Assembly: GCF_018860665.1 (NCBI RefSeq) | Contig: NZ_JAHKPK010000028.1 | Location: forward strand, 62,001 to 126,000 | DNA length: 64,000 nucleotides | Direction: 5' to 3' | Origin: Pacificibacter marinus | GTDB lineage: Bacteria > Pseudomonadota > Alphaproteobacteria > Rhodobacterales > Rhodobacteraceae | Part shown: positions 8,517-14,652 of the stretch, one piece after another | Layout: each line of letters opens with the position of its first letter | How positions within the stretch are numbered: position 1 is the first letter of the stretch | Program-made: the position numbers and the translations under genes | The notes under the pieces: model-generated | The model's database searches: none | Seen by the model: only the letters and a program-made list of their open reading frames with translations | Told to the model about the DNA's origin: nothing

Positions 8517-9353
8517 CTAAAGGCCAAGAAGCGTACGCGCTTTTTCCAACACAGCGTTCAACAAGACAGGATTGTTTTGCGCTTGCTCAAGAGCAGTGGT
8601 TACTGTTGCTTTTGCTTCGTCACCGATTGGTGCCAAGGCGATGTAACCTTTGGCTGTTTCAAGATCAAAGCCTTCAACTTGCAAGGCGTCACTTGCAGCT
8701 GTCGCGTCAAACTCGGTCACAGCCTCAGCAGCTTCTGTTGCTTCCGTGGCCATTTCAGTTGTCGCATCAGCAGCCTCTGTCGCGGCTTCCGTTGAATCGG
8801 TTGCCATGTCTGTCGCACTGTCAACAACGTCTGTCGCCACATCTGCTGCGTCAGTGGCCATGTCTGTCGCACCATCAACAACGTCAGTCGCAGCCTCTGT
8901 TGCCGCATCAGCAGCGTCGCTTGCCATGTCTGCCGCATCGGAGGCCATGTCTGTCGCGCCTTCAACAACGCCAGTCGCAGCATCTGTTGCCGCGTCAGCA
9001 GCGTCGCTTGCCATTTCAGTGGCTGCATCCGTCGCGTCAGTGGCCATATCTGTCGCGCCTTCAACAACGCCAGTCGCAGCATCTGTTGCCGCGTCAGCAG
9101 CTTCGCTTGCCATCGCAGCAGCGTCTGCCGCAGCATCAGCGGCATCTTCTACAGCACCTTCAACGGCGTCTTTTGCAGCATCGATCATTGAGCCTGCAGA
9201 GTCAGCTACAGCATCGGCAGCCGATTCAGTTGTTTCCGTTACAGATTCGACAACAGCAGATGTTGCCTCAGCCGCCTTTTCTTCTTCTTTACAAGCAGCC
9301 AAGCTGAACGCGAGGCCAGTTGCTACAGCAGCAGTAACAAAACGATTGGTCAT
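8517..9353 (-). CDS. Lipoprotein with long Ala/Asp/Thr-rich helical repeats
   Basis: The 278-residue protein has a signal peptide ending in the lipobox LAAC with Cys21, so it should be lipid-anchored in the envelope. Residues about 25-210 are almost entirely Ala, Asp, Thr, Glu, Val, Met and Ser in repeats such as AADAATDAATGVVEGATDMA. They have no Pro and few large residues, a pattern expected of a long acidic amphipathic helix or coiled coil. A more normal globular tail of about 60 residues follows (QVEGFDLETAKGYIALAPIG...). AAGGACT precedes the ATG. I recognise no family for the repeat. Possible roles are an envelope spacer, surface or stress protein. Confidence 0.85.
   Translation of the reverse strand: MTNRFVTAAVATGLAFSLAACKEEEKAAEATSAVVESVTETTESAADAVADSAGSMIDAAKDAVEGAVEDAADAAADAAAMASEAADAATDAATGVVEGATDMATDATDAATEMASDAADAATDAATGVVEGATDMASDAADMASDAADAATEAATDVVDGATDMATDAADVATDVVDSATDMATDSTEAATEAADATTEMATEATEAAEAVTEFDATAASDALQVEGFDLETAKGYIALAPIGDEAKATVTTALEQAQNNPVLLNAVLEKARTLLGL
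8951..9112. repeat. Internal direct repeats inside the lipoprotein gene (99-base period)
   Basis: The block beginning CTGTCGCGCCTTCAACAACG at 8951 recurs at 9050 and is almost identical for more than 50 bases. The 99-base shift equals 33 residues. Shorter related copies begin near 8864 and 8810. This shows recent in-frame duplication and possible copy-number variation. Confidence 0.85.
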
Positions 9354-9544: not shown

Positions 9545-9558
9545 AGGAGCTTATCATA
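9545..9558 (+). promoter_or_regulatory. infC ribosome-binding site and ATA start codon
   Basis: AGGAG at 9545-9549 is followed by six bases and ATA 9556-9558. An in-frame stop at 9544-9546 rules out any earlier start. Non-canonical AUU/AUA-type starts are a known hallmark of infC and allow IF3 to repress its own translation. Confidence 0.85.
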
Positions 9559-10101
9559 GCCCGCAGACCTCACAATGCCCCGCCCCAACGCGATACCGGA
9601 CCTCGGACGAACGAAGCCATTCGTTGCCCAGAGGTTCGCCTGATCGGTGCAGAGGGTGAAAATGTCGGAGTCGTCACGCCTGCGCGTGCGATGGATCTCG
9701 CAGCCCAAGCAGGGCTCGACCTCGTGGAAATTTCTCCGAACGCGGCGCCGCCCGTGTGTAAGATCATGGATTTTGGCAAGTTCAAATACGAACAGCAAAA
9801 ACGTGAATCTGAAGCACGCAAAAACCAAAAGATCATCGAAATCAAGGAAGTCAAATTCCGCCCTGGTACAGATGTGCATGACTACCAAGTCAAAATGCGC
9901 AATGTTTTGAAATTCTTGGGCACTGGCGACAAAGTTAAAGTCACTTTGCGTTTTCGGGGTCGTGAAATGGCGCACCAAGATTTGGGACGCCAACTTTTGG
10001 AACGCGTCGCTGCTGACGTGAAAGAAATTGGTCGCGTTGAAAGCATGCCAAAAATGGAAGGCCGTCAGATGATTATGATGGTCGGTCCGCTGCCAAAATA
10101 A
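9556..10101 (+). CDS. infC: Translation initiation factor IF-3 (ATA start)
   Basis: The 181-residue factor binds the 30S subunit, prevents premature 50S joining and checks the start codon. It begins (M)[20 protein letters not shown], followed by the N-domain ([26 protein letters not shown]), the lysine-rich linker and the C-domain ([31 protein letters not shown]). Starting at the first ATG (9691) would remove 45 conserved residues, so ATA 9556, preceded by AGGAG, is the start. rpmI and rplT, which often follow infC, are absent; a strong terminator comes next, so the gene is monocistronic here. Confidence 0.95.
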
Positions 10102-10194: not shown

Positions 10195-10230
10195 TACCCT
10201 CGAAGCGTCAGGCTTCGAGGGTATTATTTT
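10195..10230 (+). terminator. Intrinsic terminator after infC
   Basis: TACCCTCGAAGC (10195-10206) pairs perfectly with GCTTCGAGGGTA (10212-10223) around a five-base loop, followed by TTATTTT. It lies about 95 bases after the infC stop. Confidence 0.92.
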
Positions 10231-10273: not shown

Positions 10274-10316
10274 AAAAAAAAGGCGTCGCAGGTGAAAACG
10301 CACACCCTGCGACGCC
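10274..10316 (-). terminator. Strong intrinsic terminator of the candidate small RNA
   Basis: On the minus strand GGCGTCGCAGG (10316-10306) pairs perfectly with CCTGCGACGCC (10292-10282) around a 13-base loop, followed by eight T residues. It lies about 240 bases beyond the FadB-like gene, too far to be that gene's obvious terminator. Confidence 0.92.
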
Positions 10317-10432
10317 GAGGTCATTGCCAGCCCACGCACAACAGGCGGACAACGTTGCAAATGCGCATTGCATTCACAGGAGGGAAGCAAAGCATCATCT
10401 GATGAAGGGTCATCGTCGTTGCTTTGCGCTCA
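10274..10432 (-). ncRNA. Candidate FNR-activated small RNA (about 160 nt)
   Basis: A complete minus-strand transcription unit without a convincing gene lies between the convergent ends of infC and the FadB-like gene. It has a perfect FNR box centred about 41.5 bases before the predicted start, a -10-like element and an intrinsic terminator. The predicted RNA begins with a nested hairpin: 10420-10427 pairs with 10387-10394, enclosing GATGA/TCATC. A CCCTCCT stretch follows (10384-10378), complementary to a Shine-Dalgarno sequence, and the terminator hairpin ends it. This architecture matches trans-acting small RNAs, and the regulation would resemble enterobacterial FnrS. A 60-codon frame starting at 10390 runs through the terminator and is not credible. 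Existence and targets are inferred. Confidence 0.6.
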
Positions 10433-10438
10433 TAAGAT

Positions 10439-10480
10439 TGAATACGATGCCACGTCAGCAACAGCTTTGATCTGCATCAA
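10439..10480 (-). promoter_or_regulatory. Perfect FNR/FnrL box and -10 element of the candidate small RNA
   Basis: TTGATGCAGATCAA (10480-10467, minus strand) is an exact TTGAT-N4-ATCAA dyad. A -10-like TATTCA lies at 10444-10439. A start about seven bases later (near 10432) sets the box centre at -41.5, the class II activator position. On the plus strand the same box faces only the 3' end of a convergent gene. Confidence 0.65.
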
Positions 10481-10557: not shown

Positions 10558-12663
10558 TTAGCTCAAATTGAGGCTCTCAAGATTATCGCCGTTTTTGATA
10601 AGATCTGCCCAAATTTGAGCAGGTTCCCAAATGTCGGGCGCTTCTGCTGCAAACTCACGTAATTTCTTTTGCACCACCAAAGGACGCATGACATCCGCAG
10701 TCAACATCGGCCCCCCTTGCCAACGCGGAAACCCTTTTGCCAACAGCATAACGGCATCAATATCACCGGGCCGTGCGACGACGCCCTCTTGCAACAGACG
10801 CGCGCCGGCATTGGCCTGCGCCAAAATAATGCGATCGCATATTTGAGCTTCACTCAAGGTCACACGACCGATCCCCGCCCCCTCACGCAGCACATCAATA
10901 ATGGCCAGCGCCGCGTGATCGTCTGTGCGTTGCGGGGTTTGGTCGGTTAAAACATAATCGTAAAACCCGCCATCCCCACCGCGCCCTGTTCGACCAGCCT
11001 CTCTAAGCACACTGGCAGCCACACCGGTAAAATATTCCAAACCGAGCGCATCCATATTGGCGCAAGGCCCCGTTGGCATCCCGAAATGTTCCATCGCTTG
11101 ATCGATACGCGACGGCGCAACGCCCATCAGCAATAGTACATCCACGGCATCCCAAGCGGCCTTTTCCAGCGTATTGGCGATCAAACCGTCATGTGCGGAC
11201 AGACAAACAGGCACCTTGCCCATTTTGCGTACAACCGCGTGTGCCGTGGCCAAAGCAACCTCAGAAAGCGCTTCAGTACGCACCACCTCGACCACGCGGA
11301 TCGCTTGGGCAGGGGCAAAGAAATGCAACCCCAGAAACCGCTCAGGATGAGACAGATCTTGCGCCATTCGGGCAAACCCACGATCGCTTATGGTCGCCAA
11401 AACGGCGTCTTGTGAAATAAATTCTTCGATCCGCGACAATATTTGCGCGCGCCGCTCAACCGTGCCAGAGGTGGCCTCAATCACAAAATCGCAATTCGAC
11501 AGGCTTTGCAGCTCAGACGCCCCTGAAAATTGCCCCAGTATCTTATCGCGGATTTCTGGCGTGATATGCCCCTGTTGCGCTGCTTGCTCATATGAGCGGG
11601 TGATTTTACGTTGAGCCAAAGCCACCTGATTGGCGTCTGAGCCAAACACCACAACCTCAAACCCATGATCAAGGGCTGCCATTGCAATGGCCAGCGCCAT
11701 ATTGGACACCCCCGCGATGCCTATGGTGGACGCGGCACGGGATTTGCTAAGGTTCAGGCCTGCGGGACGTGCTGCGCGACGCTCGGCCAAATAGGCATGA
11801 CGCATCGCACGCACCTGCTTTGACCCCAAAGCATCCAAACGTGCAGCATTTTCACGAAACACGCCAGCCTCAAAGGGCAGCAAAAGAGCCGCCTCAACAC
11901 AGTCAACAATGAACCCAAAGGCTTTGATATGTGACTGGCCCGCACGCGCGCGGTGCTTGGTAACGGCATCCATATAGGCCGCCCCATCAGACAGTCCCGT
12001 CATGACATCACAGGTGCGGCGCACCACAAGACCATCATTGATCAGGCTTTGGCAAAACGCATTCACCCCACGCATGTCGCGCATATCGACCACGTCATCG
12101 CAAATACCAAGTAACTGCGCATGTTGCCCCGCCACGGATTTTCCAGACAGCATCATTTCAAGAGCCGCAGCAGCACCAATCAAACGCGGCAAGCGTTGGG
12201 TCACGCCGCCCCCCGGCACCATGCCAAAGGTGATTTCAGGGGCGCCAAGTCGCGCTTTTGGGCCACATACACGGTAATGCGCGGCCAATGCCAAAGCCAG
12301 CCCTCCCTCGAACACCGACCCACGTAAGGCCGCAACAACGGGTTTGTGACTGTTTTCGATGGTGCGGCACAGATCATCAAGTGATGGCGTGGCCTCCAAT
12401 GATCCAGCCTCAAGGTCGGCCAATTCTGCGGCCCCCAATCCTGTTGAAAACCCTGCTCCCTGCCCGTGCAGACAAATGACTTTAACGTTTGGATCATCTT
12501 GCGCGATCTGCAAGCTGCTCAACAAAGACCGCCGCACATCAAGTGTCAGCGCGTTCACAGGTGGATTGCAAAGTACGATATAGGCAACGCCGCCATCGTG
12601 GCGCGTATCAACTAAGGGGGGCTGTACCTGCTCTGCGGCAGACTTGGCATCGGATGTGGTCAT
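10558..12663 (-). CDS. FadB/FadJ-like enoyl-CoA hydratase / 3-hydroxyacyl-CoA dehydrogenase, divergent
   Basis: The 701-residue protein has the multifunctional layout: crotonase domain (about 15-200), linker helix, 3-hydroxyacyl-CoA dehydrogenase NAD domain (about 310-485) and C-terminal domain (about 490-690). APEITFGMVPGGG keeps one crotonase catalytic Glu, but the second is replaced in FEGGLALALAAHYR. The dehydrogenase keeps LHFFAPAQ and VVEVV with the catalytic His and Glu. Its dinucleotide loop, however, reads IGIAGVSNMA instead of GxGxMG, so NAD binding may be weakened. It should act on acyl-CoA in beta-oxidation but may have a reduced or altered activity. No thiolase is adjacent. GGAGAGG precedes the ATG inside a hairpin. 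Confidence 0.85.
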   Translation of the reverse strand: MTTSDAKSAAEQVQPPLVDTRHDGGVAYIVLCNPPVNALTLDVRRSLLSSLQIAQDDPNVKVICLHGQGAGFSTGLGAAELADLEAGSLEATPSLDDLCRTIENSHKPVVAALRGSVFEGGLALALAAHYRVCGPKARLGAPEITFGMVPGGGVTQRLPRLIGAAAALEMMLSGKSVAGQHAQLLGICDDVVDMRDMRGVNAFCQSLINDGLVVRRTCDVMTGLSDGAAYMDAVTKHRARAGQSHIKAFGFIVDCVEAALLLPFEAGVFRENAARLDALGSKQVRAMRHAYLAERRAARPAGLNLSKSRAASTIGIAGVSNMALAIAMAALDHGFEVVVFGSDANQVALAQRKITRSYEQAAQQGHITPEIRDKILGQFSGASELQSLSNCDFVIEATSGTVERRAQILSRIEEFISQDAVLATISDRGFARMAQDLSHPERFLGLHFFAPAQAIRVVEVVRTEALSEVALATAHAVVRKMGKVPVCLSAHDGLIANTLEKAAWDAVDVLLLMGVAPSRIDQAMEHFGMPTGPCANMDALGLEYFTGVAASVLREAGRTGRGGDGGFYDYVLTDQTPQRTDDHAALAIIDVLREGAGIGRVTLSEAQICDRIILAQANAGARLLQEGVVARPGDIDAVMLLAKGFPRWQGGPMLTADVMRPLVVQKKLREFAAEAPDIWEPAQIWADLIKNGDNLESLNLS

Positions 12664-13229: not shown

Positions 13230-13515
13230 AGGATCCTCCTGATGTGTGCAGGTTAAAGCGAAGGGTTCATGCGGCTTCATGTTGGCGTTTTAGGTGCTGC
13301 CCTAATGCGCATAAGACAGAACATCTTGGCGCGTCTCGTCCGTATCATCGCCATAAGGGATGCAATCGGACGCTCAGCTCAGCTGGCCCTTCCACTTGCC
13401 CTGACAACGAAACACAGCGTCTCGACGGCGTGGACGCATGTTGTCGTCATCCATCATAAACGGCCCCCTTCGTCAAAAGCATCGCGCAAACTGACGTGGA
13501 CTGCCTTGATGCAGG

Positions 13516-14652
13516 TCAATCAATCGAGGGTAAATCGCCCATGGCGGGAAAATCAGACAGATCGCCAATATCGCCAAGCGGCGGCAGATCGCCCCCCATG
13601 TTGCCAAGCGATGGAAAATCATCAGGCATATTTTCTGTGGCGGAAAAATCGCCCATACTCGGTATGTCAGCCCCAAGATCATCGGGCATGCCATCCGCCG
13701 CGAGTGCAGGGAAATCTGTGCCCCCCATGCCAGCCACTCCAATGTCACTCAAGCCATCACGCGCGCCATGATCGCCATCCAGACTGGCTGGCCCATCCAT
13801 ATCCACACGAATGGCGCGGTGACCGTTCATTTGTCCCAACCGACCAAATGAAACGCGCCGCCCGTCGGCCACCAGCTCGACACGCATTAACGCCTCATGC
13901 GGAATTGGGATGGTCATGCCAACGCCCAAGCTTGCCGCATCCGACAAAGGCAATGAAATGCGGTGCAACACGGTATCAAGATTGGCTTCTGTTTTCATCA
14001 CCGAGGTTTTGAAATCTCTTTGCCAATCCGATTGTGTCCCAGGTTCCGGTTTTGGTTTGGGGCGATACGCAGGATAAATGAACATGATTTCGCCGCTGCG
14101 TAGCCCCAGCCCCATATCAACGGAAATACGAAACATGCGGTAACGAATATCATCAAAGGCAATGGGAATGGACCGCGTTTCAGACAATTGCGCGGCAGTA
14201 CGATAGCCGTCAATTTGCGGTGGGTCGGCAGCCTCTTGTACGATATGTTCGAAATGCGCGAGCATTTGATCAATAAGATCAAAACACATCACGGAATCTG
14301 TTGAAGTGGGTTTGCGGTCTTCAGGCGCGTGTTTTTGCACGTTGCCTGTGGTCATCTGTTCCACAACAGAGGTCGTGACAGCGAGGCTAAACACAGCCAA
14401 ACCGTAAGCGTTCTCAGGCCCTTCCAATAGAGCCAATAGTGAATTGTCTGGAATTTGGTCCGGCAAACGGCTTGTCGATGTCAGTTCTTCGACCACATCA
14501 GTCACCTGCATCACCATGCCCGTGCTGTCCTCAGCCGCTTTGGCAACAGCCAAGCGCAGGGCTTTTGCAGCAGACATAGATGTGACTTCAGGCGGAGGAC
14601 GCCCGACGCCCGCCTTACGGCGCATTGCGGAAATGAGGTCATCGTCAGACAT
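13516..14652 (-). CDS. Orphan FliM/FliN-family protein with SpoA domain and acidic repeat tail
   Basis: The 378-residue protein begins MSDDDLISAMRRKAGVGRPP. Its middle part (about 60-200) resembles FliM, and a SpoA (C-ring) domain lies at about 225-295 (LDTVLHRISLPLSD, VELVADGRRVSFGRLG). The last 80 residues are low-complexity repeats rich in Asp, Pro, Gly and Met, such as DLPPLGDIGD. Flagellar FliM binds CheY and forms the motor switch. No flagellar gene is nearby, so this is either a motor switch protein encoded apart from the main cluster, as in other Rhodobacterales, or a repurposed SpoA protein. Confidence 0.8.
   Translation of the reverse strand: MSDDDLISAMRRKAGVGRPPPEVTSMSAAKALRLAVAKAAEDSTGMVMQVTDVVEELTSTSRLPDQIPDNSLLALLEGPENAYGLAVFSLAVTTSVVEQMTTGNVQKHAPEDRKPTSTDSVMCFDLIDQMLAHFEHIVQEAADPPQIDGYRTAAQLSETRSIPIAFDDIRYRMFRISVDMGLGLRSGEIMFIYPAYRPKPKPEPGTQSDWQRDFKTSVMKTEANLDTVLHRISLPLSDAASLGVGMTIPIPHEALMRVELVADGRRVSFGRLGQMNGHRAIRVDMDGPASLDGDHGARDGLSDIGVAGMGGTDFPALAADGMPDDLGADIPSMGDFSATENMPDDFPSLGNMGGDLPPLGDIGDLSDFPAMGDLPSID

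Follow-up and report, generated by a model that had tools for sequence, protein, structure and literature searches.

Does the intergenic DNA between infC and a FadB/FadJ-like gene of Pacificibacter marinus encode a small RNA (sRNA) that is switched on by FNR at low oxygen and, if so, through which of its parts would such an RNA act? The question was raised by a prediction made for the window, i.e., the whole 64,000-nucleotide stretch of DNA analysed here, in which a complete small transcription unit with no credible gene was proposed on the minus strand. The original prediction comprised (i) an exact TTGAT-N4-ATCAA dyad, (ii) a -10 element placing this dyad at -41.5, (iii) a nested 5' hairpin, (iv) an exposed CU-rich stretch complementary to ribosome sites, and (v) an 11-bp perfect terminator followed by eight T residues. 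All of these elements were found in place on re-examination (Table 1), and two further hairpins, 2 and 3, which had been absent from that description, were recognized.

Table 1. Coordinates in the window of the predicted sRNA gene, its elements and its neighbours.
Feature	Position	Strand	Basis or remark
FNR/FnrL box TTGATGCAGATCAA	10467..10480	-	exact dyad, predicted site
-10 element TATTCA, weak	10439..10444	-	fits a start at 10432/10431; start inferred
Small RNA, 158 nt	10274..10431	-	start predicted at 10431 or 10432
Hairpin 1, nested, 5'	10387..10427	-	fold and covariation
Linker UUCCCUCC, anti-Shine-Dalgarno type	10379..10386	-	unpaired in the predicted fold
Hairpin 2	10356..10378	-	covariation
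Hairpin 3	10322..10354	-	covariation
Hairpin-3 loop GUUGUGCGU, KUUGUGCGU in 21/21 homologues	10334..10342	-	alignment
Hairpin 4, terminator stem-loop, 11 bp perfect, loop with UGCGUUU	10282..10316	-	
Terminator T run, 8 T	10274..10281	-	
FadB/FadJ-like enoyl-CoA hydratase / 3-hydroxyacyl-CoA dehydrogenase, upstream neighbour of the RNA on the same strand	10558..12663	-	
infC, translation initiation factor IF-3, convergent neighbour of the RNA	9547..10101	+	

In addition to the window's own locus, a DNA search of 101 genomes identified 17 correct ones within the genus, the closest of which, 92% identical over the query, came from a genome inferred to be Pacificibacter marinus D2R04. Three hits were dropped: two matches of 24-25 nt to the terminator region (L019 and L021) and one at a wrong place in genome G017 (L020), the true copy of which is L087. 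A covariance model, R1, was built from 17 of these 18 loci, window included, and covariance searching localized the RNA to 19 of the 20 genomes of the genus (Celeribacter/Pacificibacter), the single miss being a genome that is 85% complete (G006). Outside its training set, R1 recovered the RNA in G010 (115 bits) and G017 (136 bits) and, in other genera, in Aquimixticola (genome G101, locus L024; 88 bits) and Candidatus Halocynthiibacter (genome G148, locus L025; 51 bits), both of which possess the box. The loci scoring 51 bits or more, a set bounded by a gap in the scores, make up the 21 homologues referred to throughout. A model R2, whose training set contained the window sequence, matched the window RNA with 131.9 bits (E 1.7e-36), while the next best place in the window reached 15 bits; both the DNA search and the model indicated a single copy in the genome.

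Family scans with one genome per genus (394 genomes, 393 genera) gave strong matches beyond the own genus only in the two genera represented by G101 and G148; strict filters were applied and seven candidates were scored per genome, so that diverged homologues may have been missed. The numbers of positive genomes in the two scans were 14 and 18, with the box occurring only in the own genus, G101 and G148. Nineteen weak loci (L026-L036 and L135-L142; 20-31 bits) were rejected as homologues because they have neither an upstream box nor the TGTGCGTGG motif. Several of these weak matches (L026, L028, L030, L032, L033, L035, L135, L136 and L138), all from other Rhodobacteraceae, have in common another stretch, around CACCCCGGTTCCCTTCCTGTTGGCTACAGG, that is conserved and precedes a terminator. 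As judged from protein reading, that of L026 (G131:C34:373501-373658) is located after pufM-/pufC-like genes and before a dxs-like gene, and owing to this location it is probably the 3' element of the puf operon known as PcrX in Rhodobacter sphaeroides. A scan with a pattern containing box and loop, which cannot reveal homologues lacking either of them, returned carriers from Celeribacter, Pacificibacter, Aquimixticola soesokkakensis and Candidatus Halocynthiibacter alkanivorans; 15 of its 21 matches were confirmed by R2, and the remaining six, all outside Rhodobacterales, had no model match.

Conservation was concentrated in the proposed unit. The block from box to terminator was kept in all 21 homologues, with a mean pairwise identity of 0.90 in the box and 0.69 in the aligned RNA, compared with 0.36 and 0.26 (computed without gaps) in the 60 nt upstream and downstream, respectively. 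The predicted 5' end at 10431 reads GAGCGCA, a sequence recurring as GAGYGCA in the 19 genus homologues and diverged in the other two. The 158-nt RNA folds at -64.5 kcal/mol, as against -48.4 kcal/mol in shuffles (z -4.36), and the predicted lengths of the homologous RNAs range from 117 to 161 nt. In an alignment of the 21 homologues that was fitted to the model, thereby favouring structure somewhat, 97.0% of the cells are in standard pairs. Double changes are seen at 28 of 42 base pairs, as opposed to 12.2 in shuffles and 7-11 in controls with slid partners; none of 500 shuffles was as high on any of five measures. RNAalifold, run on a MAFFT alignment of 17 genus members, gave 16 of 42 pairs with double changes. 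Changes on both sides were observed in every hairpin, namely in 5/8 pairs of the outer and 2/3 of the inner stem of hairpin 1, 7/7 outer pairs of hairpin 2 (a hairpin absent in L025), 7/10 pairs of hairpin 3 and 7/12 of hairpin 4. No reading frame of at least 10 codons starting with ATG or GTG is common to all 21 homologues; one is common to four close Celeribacter sequences and another to L001 and L002. The covarying stems that the original prediction had proposed to look for across relatives were obtained, box and hairpins persist in close relatives, and the view of a unit devoid of a credible gene was borne out. Judged by this comparison of homologues, positions 10480-10274 of the minus strand are a predicted conserved non-coding RNA gene.

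With regard to its surroundings, in 20 of the 21 loci a FadB-like match on the same strand terminates 86-204 nt short of the RNA start; the 3' end of that gene could therefore be an additional source of part of the RNA. The other flank varies: infC was found in 5/21 loci (four of Pacificibacter type and that of Aquimixticola), in 10 loci the flank includes an AspT-like permease (by protein reading), which is in some cases not the nearest gene, and six loci have neither. In L025 the RNA and its box persist although FadB-like, infC and AspT-like genes are all absent within the 1.5-kb flank. Since neighbours change and the RNA is kept even where all three are missing, the RNA behaves as a unit of its own. 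A search of 80 genomes gave, among the matches listed, 29 FadB-like loci of other genera, which were scanned for TTGAYN4RTCAA; boxes occurred in five, and by coordinates only that of Aquimixticola (L107) is downstream of the gene. On the plus strand of the window, a strong terminator-like hairpin at 10195-10223, 3' of infC, would form a boundary between infC and the RNA gene that converges on it. Beside infC lies an Ala-rich, repetitive, lipoprotein-like open reading frame (8517-9353) with no NCBIfam match, and a similar Ala-rich frame accompanies infC in L004 and L024. Judged from sequence, the RNA locus is a free-standing, structured, non-coding unit with a putative promoter and an intrinsic terminator of its own.

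The predicted promoter includes the box; across the 64 kb of the window, no other exact TTGATN4ATCAA occurs. When one mismatch was allowed, five sites were seen in the window and 2.9 were expected, and inexact sites therefore mean little. A near-exact FNR-like site, TTGATGCAGGTCAA, at window positions 13506-13519 coincides with the 3' end of a gene that has a FliM-like match. Genome-wide (3.9 Mb), exact boxes occur at 19 places, as against none for a reversed control pattern. Of these, 15 were inspected: one lies ahead of a ccoN-like gene and another ahead of a ccoG-like gene (protein reading), as expected for an FnrL regulon, and one is the window's own. TTGAYN4RTCAA was found upstream of the RNA in 21/21 homologues and the exact TTGATN4ATCAA in 19/21; in all 18 genus loci from the DNA search, window included, the exact form stands at the same place with four variable inner bases. 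FNR sites activate from the class II distance when centred near -41.5. Counted from the RNA start, which is a modelled position, the box centre lies 41.5 or 42.5 nt upstream in 20/21 homologues, in agreement with the spacing originally proposed, and 44.5 nt upstream in L025, the RNA start of which may consequently lie a few bases upstream. At the -10 position, TA is kept in 20/21 homologues. Simple scans for promoters and terminators listed neither the promoter nor the terminator of the RNA and gave no excess over shuffles in the region; the promoter was probably missed because a -35 element is dispensable in class II FNR promoters, and the terminator because its loop is longer, or its inner stem more bulged, than the scan allows. 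The genome encodes FnrL (NF045989; 446.9 bits against a cut-off of 300) with the N-terminal cysteines that oxygen-sensing FNR proteins require, as well as Hfq (PF17209; 114.6 bits).

Which part of the RNA would do the work? Eight of the nine columns of the hairpin-3 loop, KUUGUGCGU, are invariant in the 21 homologues, and UUGUGCGU is invariant in all of them; the loop is kept in L025 although the stem that carries it has largely changed. The terminator loop, UGCGUUU in 19/21 homologues, echoes the UGCGU of this loop. The linker motif CCUCC is present in 19/19 genus homologues, absent in L024 and altered to CCUUCC in L025, where it is partly paired (predicted about 0.6 unpaired); in L004, CCUCC is predicted to be 0.2 unpaired, i.e., largely paired. 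A second unpaired stretch, CUUCC, was seen in the hairpin-2 loop of 15/21 homologues, all of Celeribacter type. The most constrained element among those predicted to be unpaired is the hairpin-3 loop. As the linker motif is not universal and the loop is invariant even with a changed stem, we ranked the loop above the linker as the candidate ancestral working part. Conservation of CCUCC holds for the genus and fails beyond it; masking of ribosome sites, the mode of action originally put forward, is supported in part, as it keeps the complementarity of CCUCC in its favour while losing rank to a loop that is under tighter constraint.

Targets were sought as exact complements, 11 nt long, to the loop (pattern ACGCACAAMAG) in 20 genomes, a search that imperfect pairings escape. 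It returned 121 places, 18 of which are the RNA gene itself, versus 83 for the reversed control. No exact 11-mer target conserved across the genus was found among 102 of the 103 non-self sites in the 20 genomes; among these sites, orthologous ones grouped into 15 clusters with two to four members each, many between close relatives. Two clusters span four genomes, and one of the two lies before a phoX-like gene. In four Celeribacter genomes (L253-L256, each representing the 60 nt before a phoX-like start codon, with the start at 1501 and the minus strand in L256) the exact loop complement ACGCACAAAAG directly precedes the ribosome site of a gene for a PhoX-like phosphatase. ACGCAC occurs upstream near the phoX-like start in 8 of the 18 genus genomes with both genes, the PhoX identity being assigned by Pfam. 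The motif is absent in the four Pacificibacter-type genomes, including the window's own, and the duplex energies calculated for these sites stand beside no control value. The gene was not accepted as a target; it stands as the best but weak lead.

We consider it highly probable that the locus encodes an antisense sRNA acting in trans, probably with the help of Hfq, that FnrL would switch on at low oxygen. Reduced FnrL would recruit RNA polymerase at the class II-positioned box, and the RNA would accumulate in low oxygen and pair with messenger RNAs through the hairpin-3 loop. In Celeribacter and Pacificibacter, the CU-rich linker may assist by covering ribosome sites and lowering translation, as may the hairpin-2 loop with CUUCC in homologues of Celeribacter type. 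Control by FNR is well supported by the comparative evidence; the weak -10 element, the modelled transcription start and the non-universal CCUCC count against this reading, as do a homologue set bounded by a score gap, the lack of a genus-wide target among exact 11-mers in 20 genomes and the FadB-like gene just upstream.

The roles of linker and loop could be distributed otherwise, such that an FnrL-controlled sRNA would mainly mask Shine-Dalgarno sequences via its CU-rich linker and the hairpin-3 loop would serve stability or protein binding. The unpaired CCUCC of the window RNA, its presence throughout the genus and the additional CUUCC in Celeribacter-type homologues fit this proposal, while L024, L025 and L004, in which the motif is missing, altered or largely paired, and a loop that hardly varies do not; we regard it as possible but would not favour it. 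The same rigidity of the loop, retained even in L025, together with the lack of a conserved complementary mRNA site among exact 11-mers in 20 genomes, would also suit a loop that binds a protein or another RNA, making the molecule a sponge or decoy in place of an mRNA antisense. Seed regions that pair with many targets, however, just as typically have invariant loops, the target search covered exact 11-mers only and no partner is known, and we hold this to be unlikely.

Two further explanations concern whether there is an independent gene at all. The proximity of the FadB-like gene on the same strand could mean that the element is mainly its 3' UTR and terminator, from which the RNA is perhaps cut, with the box being incidental. 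Against this stand the box itself, placed at the class II distance or close to it in 21/21 loci, the sharp rise of conservation at that point, and L025, which retains RNA and box with no FadB-like match in its flank, making such an origin very improbable. A chance assembly of palindrome, hairpins and terminator, to which the empty result of the simple scans might be thought to point, is hardly credible given conservation and covariation across 21 homologues. Returning to the FnrL-activated antisense sRNA, we tentatively offer, as a somewhat less than even proposition, a fuller picture: an FnrL-switched family, so far recorded in a few roseobacter genera, the working part of which would be a nearly invariant nine-base loop that pairs with many mRNAs or holds a partner, and one branch of which would in addition mask ribosome sites, may be the low-oxygen riboregulator of these bacteria.

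How does this RNA relate to known systems? Neither the window nor any of six homologous loci gave an Rfam match reaching the gathering threshold. Six weaker matches in the stretch (mir-2005, ncS54, AniS, FinP, mir-587 and BjrC68; 11-17 bits, E up to 10) were attributed to chance. AniS is an FNR-activated RNA of Neisseria; membership in its family, for which the gathering score is 50, was rejected at 14.1 bits. Literature searches on FnrL, sRNAs and Celeribacter in freely accessible main texts found no description of the RNA, and a term search showed that the main text of a Ruegeria pomeroyi sRNA paper mentions none of oxygen, FNR and infC. In these databases and texts the RNA is thus undescribed, as had been surmised.

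The CcsR or "cuckoo" RNAs of Alphaproteobacteria are characterized by a CU-rich motif, a CUCCUCCC-type loop and tandem copies. They resemble the window RNA in being sRNAs with a CU-rich motif of the anti-Shine-Dalgarno type; the family is named, and described as being under RpoH promoters, in the accessible parts of the literature (PMC10253847 for the name). The window RNA, in contrast, is a single copy that stands alone behind an FNR-type box, carries the CU-rich motif in a linker and has no Rfam match; by these features it falls outside that family.

As far as their accessible portions go, the papers on FnrL and sRNAs (PMC4263372, PMC6238624, PMC8139620, PMC10253847 and the SorX papers) concern PcrZ, Pos19 and SorX of R. 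sphaeroides. PcrZ comes from the same order and is a low-oxygen sRNA dependent on FnrL (PMC8139620, in part), 136 nt long with its own promoter (PMC6238624, in part). It differs by a PrrA consensus site, and its control by FnrL may be indirect (PMC8139620); going by this description, the two may be distinct RNAs. The family scans of 394 genomes (393 genera) showed no clear homologue of the window RNA beyond the three GTDB genera g1, g83 and g130. Pos19 (RSs0019) and SorX (RSs2461) likewise have FnrL ChIP-seq sites at their putative promoters (PMC4263372, as far as available). Pos19 is described in the available text as a 219-nt RpoE-dependent small coding RNA. RSs2461 was considered as a candidate because FnrL binds near its promoter (PMC4263372, in part), and it was rejected as the identity of the window RNA because it is SorX, an RNA that the RSP_0847 transcript yields from its 3' end; for Pos19 and SorX, too, the comparison was one of description. 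The sRNAs conserved in Celeribacter that a Paracoccus sRNA paper reports are, in its accessible part, also listed for R. sphaeroides, unlike the present RNA, for which no R. sphaeroides counterpart was seen within the range of the family scans.

Enterobacteria, along with a few other groups, supply most of the known FNR-activated sRNAs (PMC8139620), and in Rhodobacterales the links between FnrL and sRNAs consist of ChIP sites or possibly indirect effects, to judge from the parts of PMC4263372 and PMC8139620 available. Oxygen riboregulation in marine bacteria could be tested cleanly on a conserved sRNA that stands alone and has its activator site at class II distance, and its invariant loop gives clear predictions for mutants. 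Our findings suggest that the neighbour of this fatty-acid gene is a conserved sRNA gene that these bacteria would use to change gene expression at low oxygen. The parallel with FnrS of enterobacteria that had been drawn for this locus holds for the predicted promoter logic; no relationship in sequence was detected. Both are sRNAs with an FNR-type promoter of their own (PMC8139620, in part), and the window RNA, too, would act on mRNAs in low oxygen; unlike FnrS, it is characterized by four hairpins, a length of 117-161 nt among homologues, a CU-rich linker and the KUUGUGCGU loop, and FnrS was not among the weak Rfam matches at E up to 10. The RNA is hence a predicted new family of FNR-activated sRNAs, its expression being a prediction from sequence, which is FnrS-like in logic and has no detected sequence relation to FnrS.
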